DNA from: Candidatus Woesebacteria bacterium RIFCSPHIGHO2_01_FULL_38_10
Lineage (GTDB): Bacteria; Patescibacteriota; Microgenomatia; UBA8517
Length of the DNA stretch: 36,669 bases
Assembly (NCBI GenBank): GCA_001792215.1
Contig: MGGC01000027.1
Coordinates: 270 to 36,938, forward strand
Direction of reading: 5' to 3'
Below the pieces are notes generated by a model. That model ran no database searches and was not told the DNA's origin. It worked only from the letters and a program-made list of their open reading frames with translations. The position numbers and the translations under genes were made by a program. Within the stretch, counting starts at the first letter, position 1, and every line of letters starts with the position of its first letter. Positions 19,875 through 20,707 of the stretch are shown piece after piece.

Positions 19875-19902
19875 ACCTTGCAGGTTCTCTCCTTTAAAGG
19901 TA
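19875..19902 (+). repeat. REP-like 28-mer upstream of the RAYT gene
   Basis: ACCTTGCAG-GTTCTCTCC-TTTAAAGGTA, terminal ACCTT/AAGGT inverted repeat. Confidence 0.75.
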
Positions 19903-19911
19903 AAATTAGAC

Positions 19912-20595
19912 ATGCCCGCAAAAAACGCAATTAAGACTTATGTAGAAGGCGGGTATTATCACATCTATAATAGGGGAGTTGAGAAAAGATCTATATTCAA
20001 AGACCAGCAAGACTACAAAGTCTTTCTAAAATATCTTAAAGAAAGTCTCTCGTATCCACCGAAACCTGAAGATATAAAAACTATATTCACCTTGCAGGGA
20101 GAGAACTTTAAAGGTATACCCAGAAAACCTAAAAATTTTCACAAAGAGATTTCTCTTATGGCATACTGTCTAATACCCAACCACTTTCACCTACTTATCA
20201 AACAAGAACCCAAGGATTCTATAGAAAGATTCCTGAAGTCTTTATTAACAAGATACTCAATGTTCTTTAACAAAAAATACCAAAGAATTGGCGGTCTATT
20301 TCAAGGCCCTTACAAAGCCATTTTAATTACAGACGATAATTACCTCCTACACCTCAGTAGGTACATTCATTTAAATCCTTCAGAATATACTGATAACTTG
20401 ACTGAGACGTATTCGTCTTACGCAGATTATTTAGGTTTAAGAAAAACAAAGTGGGTGAAGCCGGATTTTATACTGAATTTCTTTAATAAAGAAATTGCTC
20501 CTGAATTTAAAAAAGTAAATAGTTACAAAGACTTCGTAGAAAATTACAATAAAGATCCCGTAGAAATCCTTGGTAATCTAACTCTCGAAGATTAA
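19912..20595 (+). CDS. REP-associated tyrosine transposase (RAYT, Y1/HUH family)
   Basis: YVEGGYYHIYNRGVEKRSIFKDQQDYKVFLKYL, AYCLIPNHFHLLIKQ (HUH motif), RYSMFFNKKYQRIGGLFQGPYKAILI, YLLHLSRYIHLNP. Confidence 0.95.
   Translation: MPAKNAIKTYVEGGYYHIYNRGVEKRSIFKDQQDYKVFLKYLKESLSYPPKPEDIKTIFTLQGENFKGIPRKPKNFHKEISLMAYCLIPNHFHLLIKQEPKDSIERFLKSLLTRYSMFFNKKYQRIGGLFQGPYKAILITDDNYLLHLSRYIHLNPSEYTDNLTETYSSYADYLGLRKTKWVKPDFILNFFNKEIAPEFKKVNSYKDFVENYNKDPVEILGNLTLED
20089..20116 (+). repeat. REP-like 28-mer inside the RAYT gene
   Basis: ACCTTGCAG-GGAGAGAAC-TTTAAAGGTA; flanks identical to 19875-19902, centre is the exact reverse complement. Confidence 0.75.
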
Positions 20596-20603
20596 CTATA
20601 TAC

Positions 20604-20628
20604 ACCTTGTAGGGGTTAGCCCTTAAAG
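20604..20628 (+). repeat. Degenerate REP-like copy just downstream of the RAYT gene
   Basis: ACCTTGTAG-GGGTTAGCC-CTTAAAG; contains GTAG tetranucleotide and GGG/CCC hairpin. Confidence 0.65.
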
Positions 20629-20707
20629 CATACTTTAGCGTATACAGTCACAACCAAATCGCATCTTGAAAATTTTATGATTTTTGGAATCATTTCAACT
20701 CACTACA

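Follow-up and report, generated by a model that had tools for sequence, protein, structure and literature searches.

A probable REP copy read in frame inside its own RAYT gene in a CPR bacterium

INTRODUCTION

RAYT (TnpA-REP) transposases and REPtrons, in which a RAYT gene is accompanied by its cognate REPs, are already known (PMC2817692, PMC8266576, PMC6006769). REPs of the GTAG/CGTC type also occur within genes in proteobacteria and other bacteria, where they lie in frame, including in DNA repair genes and tRNA synthetases (PMC3733652). Rickettsia palindromic elements (RPEs) are likewise in-frame palindromes in unrelated, often essential proteins (Ogata 2000, 2002, as cited in PMC10969869). 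Two open questions are touched by the locus described here: how REP tips diversify while remaining matched to the transposase, and by what route RPEs and similar palindromes come to lie in protein genes. In the open-licence papers that were searched, neither a cognate REP inside a RAYT gene, nor gene-by-gene matching of centres that includes an internal copy, nor in-frame REPs in CPR genomes were described.

RESULTS

The RAYT gene and its REP copies

The window, i.e. the whole stretch of DNA that was analysed, comprises 36,669 nucleotides from Candidatus Woesebacteria bacterium RIFCSPHIGHO2_01_FULL_38_10, a CPR bacterium with a genome of about 1.02 Mb in 41 contigs. The features of the RAYT locus are the following:

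19875-19902, forward strand: upstream REP copy, the 27-mer ACCTTGCAGGTTCTCTCCTTTAAAGGT plus A, identified by direct sequence comparison and with further genomic copies
19878-19906, forward strand: putative promoter with -35 TTGCAG (19878-19883), a 17-nt spacer containing the REP centre and -10 TAAAAT (19901-19906); 8/12 consensus positions
19912-20595, forward strand: RAYT (REP-associated Y1/HUH transposase), 227 aa, assigned by Y1_Tnp domain, HUH motif and fold match
20089-20116, forward strand: internal REP copy whose 9-nt centre is inverted, in frame as codons 60-68 (TLQGENFKG) of the 19912-20595 ORF
20604-20629, forward strand: third, variant REP copy ACCTTGTAGGGGTTAGCCCTTAAAGC with centre GGGGTTAGCCC, 8 nt past the stop codon

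The first-pass annotation had named the ORF a RAYT, and this assignment is borne out by a Y1_Tnp domain (PF01797, E = 4.8e-10) and by the predicted structure (pLDDT 89), for which Foldseek ranks 4er8, a complex of a RAYT with its REP hairpin, first (E = 4.6e-7). A PDB sequence search with the RAYT alignment returned no match; the fold search alone gave one. The HUH motif is H91-F-H93, and H91, H93 and Y151 are invariant in 62 sequences, with Y151 as the candidate catalytic tyrosine. The protein is related to, yet outside, the curated REP_Tyr_transpos equivalog of NCBIfam (E = 1.5e-9 and 37.9 bits, under the curated cut-off of 80). The gene is present in a single copy, the other family members in the genome are 32-43% identical, and the closest named relative is from Candidatus Woesebacteria (L006, 71% identity). 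RAYT-like proteins of greater length (about 310-470 aa; L024, L025, L027-L030, L051 and L056-L059) form a separate class: no REP is present 3' of their genes and the upstream palindrome is degenerate, yet a peptide like G.TF.G is kept at the corresponding position.

The upstream and internal 28-mers have identical flanks (ACCTTGCAG...TTTAAAGGTA, 19/19 positions), and their 9-nt centres, GTTCTCTCC and GGAGAGAAC, respectively, are exact reverse complements, as the first-pass annotation had reported. Its view that chance identity is unlikely also holds; the flank pattern occurs twice in the window with 0.01 occurrences expected. The flanks are near-palindromic (ACCTT...AAGGT), so the upstream/internal pair doubles as a 21/27 inverted repeat. 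In homologous loci a third REP copy is normally found 3' of the stop codon; the one in the window does not carry the new centre, and a centre similar to its own flanks the related gene L009. An Rfam search of the RAYT/REP region gave no match.

The internal copy covaries with the REPs of its own gene

Homologs were collected through genome searches at family, order and class level, and at 99 loci the segments upstream of, inside and downstream of the gene were compared. The centres were analysed in the 25 loci whose internal nine codons conform to a simple motif. In 21 of these 25 loci an exact match to the internal 9-nt centre occurs in the region upstream of the same gene, compared with 14 of 600 mispaired combinations. 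That the centre might occur in both orientations relative to the flanks among orthologs, as the first-pass annotation had proposed, was confirmed, with 16 of the 21 exact matches direct and 5 inverted. The summed centre mismatches amount to 8, compared with 65.8 +/- 5.0 after permutation (the lowest value among 10,000 permutations was 44); the permutations ignore relatedness, and near-copies work against the contrast between own and other pairs. Across all 99 loci, the values for own versus permuted segments are 1153 versus 780 +/- 19 for upstream and internal, 1074 versus 752 +/- 18 for downstream and internal, and 1603 versus 800 +/- 23 for upstream and downstream, so the internal segment resembles the flanking REPs of its own gene far more than those of other genes. 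At three loci of other lineages (L078, with the peptide LTGFNPVR, L064 and L099), the REP type is a different one and so is the peptide at this place in the protein.

Because internal centres match their own upstream regions so much more often than mispaired ones, the internal copy is, judged from the sequences, a real REP that is cognate to its transposase and is read in frame as TLQGxxFKG. The REP-like character proposed in the first-pass annotation is thus upheld, as is its suspicion that the internal similarity exceeds protein constraint. The covariation demonstrates that the internal copy tracks the REP and not a fixed peptide, and that REP centres change in concert within the copies of one gene, since these copies share a centre that varies widely from gene to gene.

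Of the 69 short homologs placed on a tree that was built without this region, 34 possess the internal REP. Its distribution on the tree involves at least 10 changes, four of them forced by strongly supported branches, and in the window's clade it is found in 25 of 27 members. The internal copy is dispensable, as about half of the tree members are without one. Its spacing from the upstream copy ranges from 173 to 255 across 34 loci (some centres being alignment-dependent). A model of helical phasing, with two operators some 214 bp apart, finds no support as a rule, as a spacing of 214-216 occurs in only 10 of the 34 loci.

The upstream copy lies in a putative promoter spacer

In the window the promoter match is weak (8/12, under the 9/12 cut of a standard scan), and the same arrangement recurs in homologs. 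A TTG...-16/18-TA...T promoter is found upstream of 49 of 84 short homologs, compared with 8 of 84 downstream regions and 4.1 in shuffled sequences, with the -35 element mostly 34-36 nt before the ATG and the -10 element mostly ending 5-6 nt before it. The REP hairpin is located within the -35/spacer region in 28 of 44 homologs versus 20% in shuffles. The putative -10 element of the window ends 5 nt 5' of the ATG, which makes the gene apparently leaderless. RAYT transcripts are thus probably leaderless and, with the upstream REP in the spacer of such a promoter, this copy is probably absent from the mRNA. Its position in the spacer suggests autorepression, for which the upstream REP would be a plausible operator, and disfavours pairing within the mRNA. 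Of the autoregulation suggested in the first-pass annotation, the part that remains plausible is therefore the one acting through the promoter-embedded copy rather than through the orientation of the internal copy.

Dispersed REPs and in-frame copies in other genes

Dispersed REPs were counted by a pattern search for one REP type in 23 genomes. Genomes with a close RAYT mostly contain 5-19 matches per strand (5 and 2 in the window's genome), while a reversed control pattern gave 0-3 matches and most genomes without a close RAYT contain 0-1; one genome (G017) has no RAYT match yet five REP pattern matches. The dispersed centres are within one mismatch of the RAYT REPs of their own genome in 39 of 48 cases; when they are compared with other genomes, this holds for 78 of 288 pairs. 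Only two upstream-type copies are dispersed in the window's genome. An exact 27-mer is located inside rnhB (G000:C38:98604; L063:505-1263, minus strand), where it is read in frame as TFKGENLQG within a length-variable loop of RNase HII, and a copy with one mismatch is found 3.8 kb away (G000:C38:94820; L062, about 1321). The latter sits in a short frame on the minus strand (PVVAAACVFAPFKGENLQG...) similar to an rnhB fragment, at this distance from the intact gene.

Close to half of the examined dispersed sites are in frame within long ORFs. The hosts include FolD, LeuRS (in three genomes), GluRS, ArgRS, LepA, methionyl-tRNA formyltransferase (FMT), RarA/MgsA, a DNA alkylation protein, an M16 peptidase and glycosyltransferases. 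The in-frame copies interrupt Pfam domains or fall between domains of essential proteins, and Pfam domains extend on both sides of the insert in RNase HII, LeuRS, GluRS, ArgRS, RarA, the DNA alkylation protein and the M16 peptidase. Orthologs without the REP are common; the net difference in length is variable, with a clear extra segment in LepA but little change in GluRS and RarA. In GluRS the REP occupies the same site in two genomes, and each centre, one base apart from the other, fits the RAYT of its own genome.

Several further palindromes were noted in these hosts. Among the LeuRS genes L167, L197 and L183 (genomes G006, G008 and G103, respectively), REPs occur at more than one site, and the G008 gene holds two, of different REP types. 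One ATPase loop of RarA/MgsA (L210, L218, L220, L226, L234 and L254) contains different in-frame palindromes depending on the CPR genome, that of the window's own genome being CACTCCCGGAGTG...CACTCCGGGAGTG, and thus looks like a hotspot at which palindromes from several families are translated. Another type of REP, ACCTTTAAGGGTGCCACCTTTAAAGGT, is located in an apparent folD of the window's genome (G000:C37:20007, L041), and folD of G006 (L165) likewise has an in-frame REP.

Origin of the inverted centre

The five inverted exact matches are those of the window, L006, L010, L044 and L046. Only in the window and L010 does the difference extend beyond the central base, which makes the window the clearest case of inversion; the flips in L006, L044 and L046 could be single substitutions. 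In the window's genome, the upstream, rnhB and C38:94820 copies share one phase of flank and centre, and the internal copy is the odd one. The relatives L012, L014 and L009 have different centres and keep the internal outer flanks TTGCAG...TTTAAAGG (TTTCAAGG in L014), so in the internal copy of the window the centre was most likely exchanged rather than the whole element. Its orientation could matter for recognition, as in the TnpA-REP system of Stenotrophomonas maltophilia reverse-complementing the loop severely impairs cleavage and leaves little of the binding (PMC8266576).

Alternatively, a whole REP may have been inserted in reverse, with selection for the peptide (LQG..FKG) subsequently restoring the outer flanks, which would make the centre-only inversion secondary. 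This origin is unlikely, although it deserves consideration, as the rnhB copy on the coding strand (TFKGENLQG) is in a whole-REP orientation that gives the same GEN centre and inversion of the whole element already yields 21/27 matches through the near-palindromic flanks. Exact identity with the upstream flanks would, however, require six flank substitutions, and relatives with other centres share the internal flanks, which therefore look ancestral.

In the predicted structure the internal peptide is modelled as a β-hairpin (strands 57-61 and 64-68). We also considered whether the internal centre encodes residues of a β-hairpin that itself helps to read the REP tip. If this were true, one change would alter both the DNA target and its protein reader, a self-encoded specificity switch, but we regard the idea as improbable. 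Slightly harder still to credit is pairing in the mRNA between copies in the 5' UTR and the gene, which would hide the start region, as a form of translational autoregulation, and select the inverted centre for complementarity. The window copies could make a near-continuous 27-nt helix on one strand, but the exact centre matches are predominantly direct and the upstream copy is probably untranscribed, given the position of the -10 element in most homologs.

An actively invertible 9-bp switch governing self-recognition or expression, as envisaged in the first-pass annotation, is very improbable. Both centre orientations do occur among homologs, but the flipped state is the minority, differing beyond the central base in just the two loci named above, no recombinase and no alternative state were observed, and the known systems of site-specific inversion act, to our knowledge, on segments longer than 9 bp. 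That conservation of the protein sequence or of codon choice suffices to explain the similarity, for which the partial retention of G..FKG in the long homologs L024 and L056 without a detectable REP might speak, can virtually be dismissed, because the non-coding upstream region tracks the variable codons, as it could only if the DNA itself is the unit. Chance as the source of the 28-mer similarity is rejected by the same own-centre matches.

DISCUSSION

We consider it likely that the locus is a CPR REPtron in which tips are copied between REP copies and RAYT represses itself through the promoter copy. The gene is accompanied by three copies of its own REP, one in the putative promoter spacer, a second in frame within the coding sequence and a third after the stop codon, and others are dispersed in the genome. 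RAYT would recognise single-stranded REP hairpins by their tip and mobilise them. Through the similar palindromic arms, tips may be copied between REP copies by strand exchange or template switching, and copying in either orientation with the outer flanks untouched could produce the flipped centre of the window. RAYT bound to the promoter-embedded copy would lower its own transcription, and the internal copy may be mainly a tolerated passenger in an exposed β-hairpin.

One gene-specific centre ties together the candidate transposase, the promoter copy, the internal copy and the in-frame copies in essential genes. Translated REP copies moreover occur in CPR bacteria within tRNA synthetases, LepA and RNase HII. 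With dozens of natural RAYT/REP pairs that have different tips, tip recognition and concerted change become directly testable.

The locus resembles known RAYT/REPtrons in its Y1/HUH transposase, in the structural match to 4er8 and in the short flanking palindromes that are also dispersed in the genome. It differs from them in that a cognate REP is located in frame inside the coding sequence, the upstream REP is within the promoter spacer and the copy number is low (with about 5-19 pattern matches on each strand of a genome). The invariant GTAG that precedes the hairpin in GTAG-tagged REPs is absent, and the upstream copies have TTGCAA/TTGTAA/TTGCAG or TTGACA instead. As in the intragenic GTAG/CGTC REPs, the copies are in frame inside genes, whereas the accessible part of that account contains no REP inside a RAYT, no covariation of centres and no mention of CPR bacteria (PMC3733652). 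A Y1 transposase and hairpins near both gene ends are shared with IS200/IS605 elements, from which the window's gene differs in being single copy, and neither an empty site nor a target signature could be made out for it. Like the Rickettsia palindromic elements, the palindromes described here are read in frame inside intact conserved proteins, although the Rickettsia elements are longer (about 150 bp). We know of no cognate transposase for the latter; here, in contrast, the centres tie each copy to the RAYT of the same genome.
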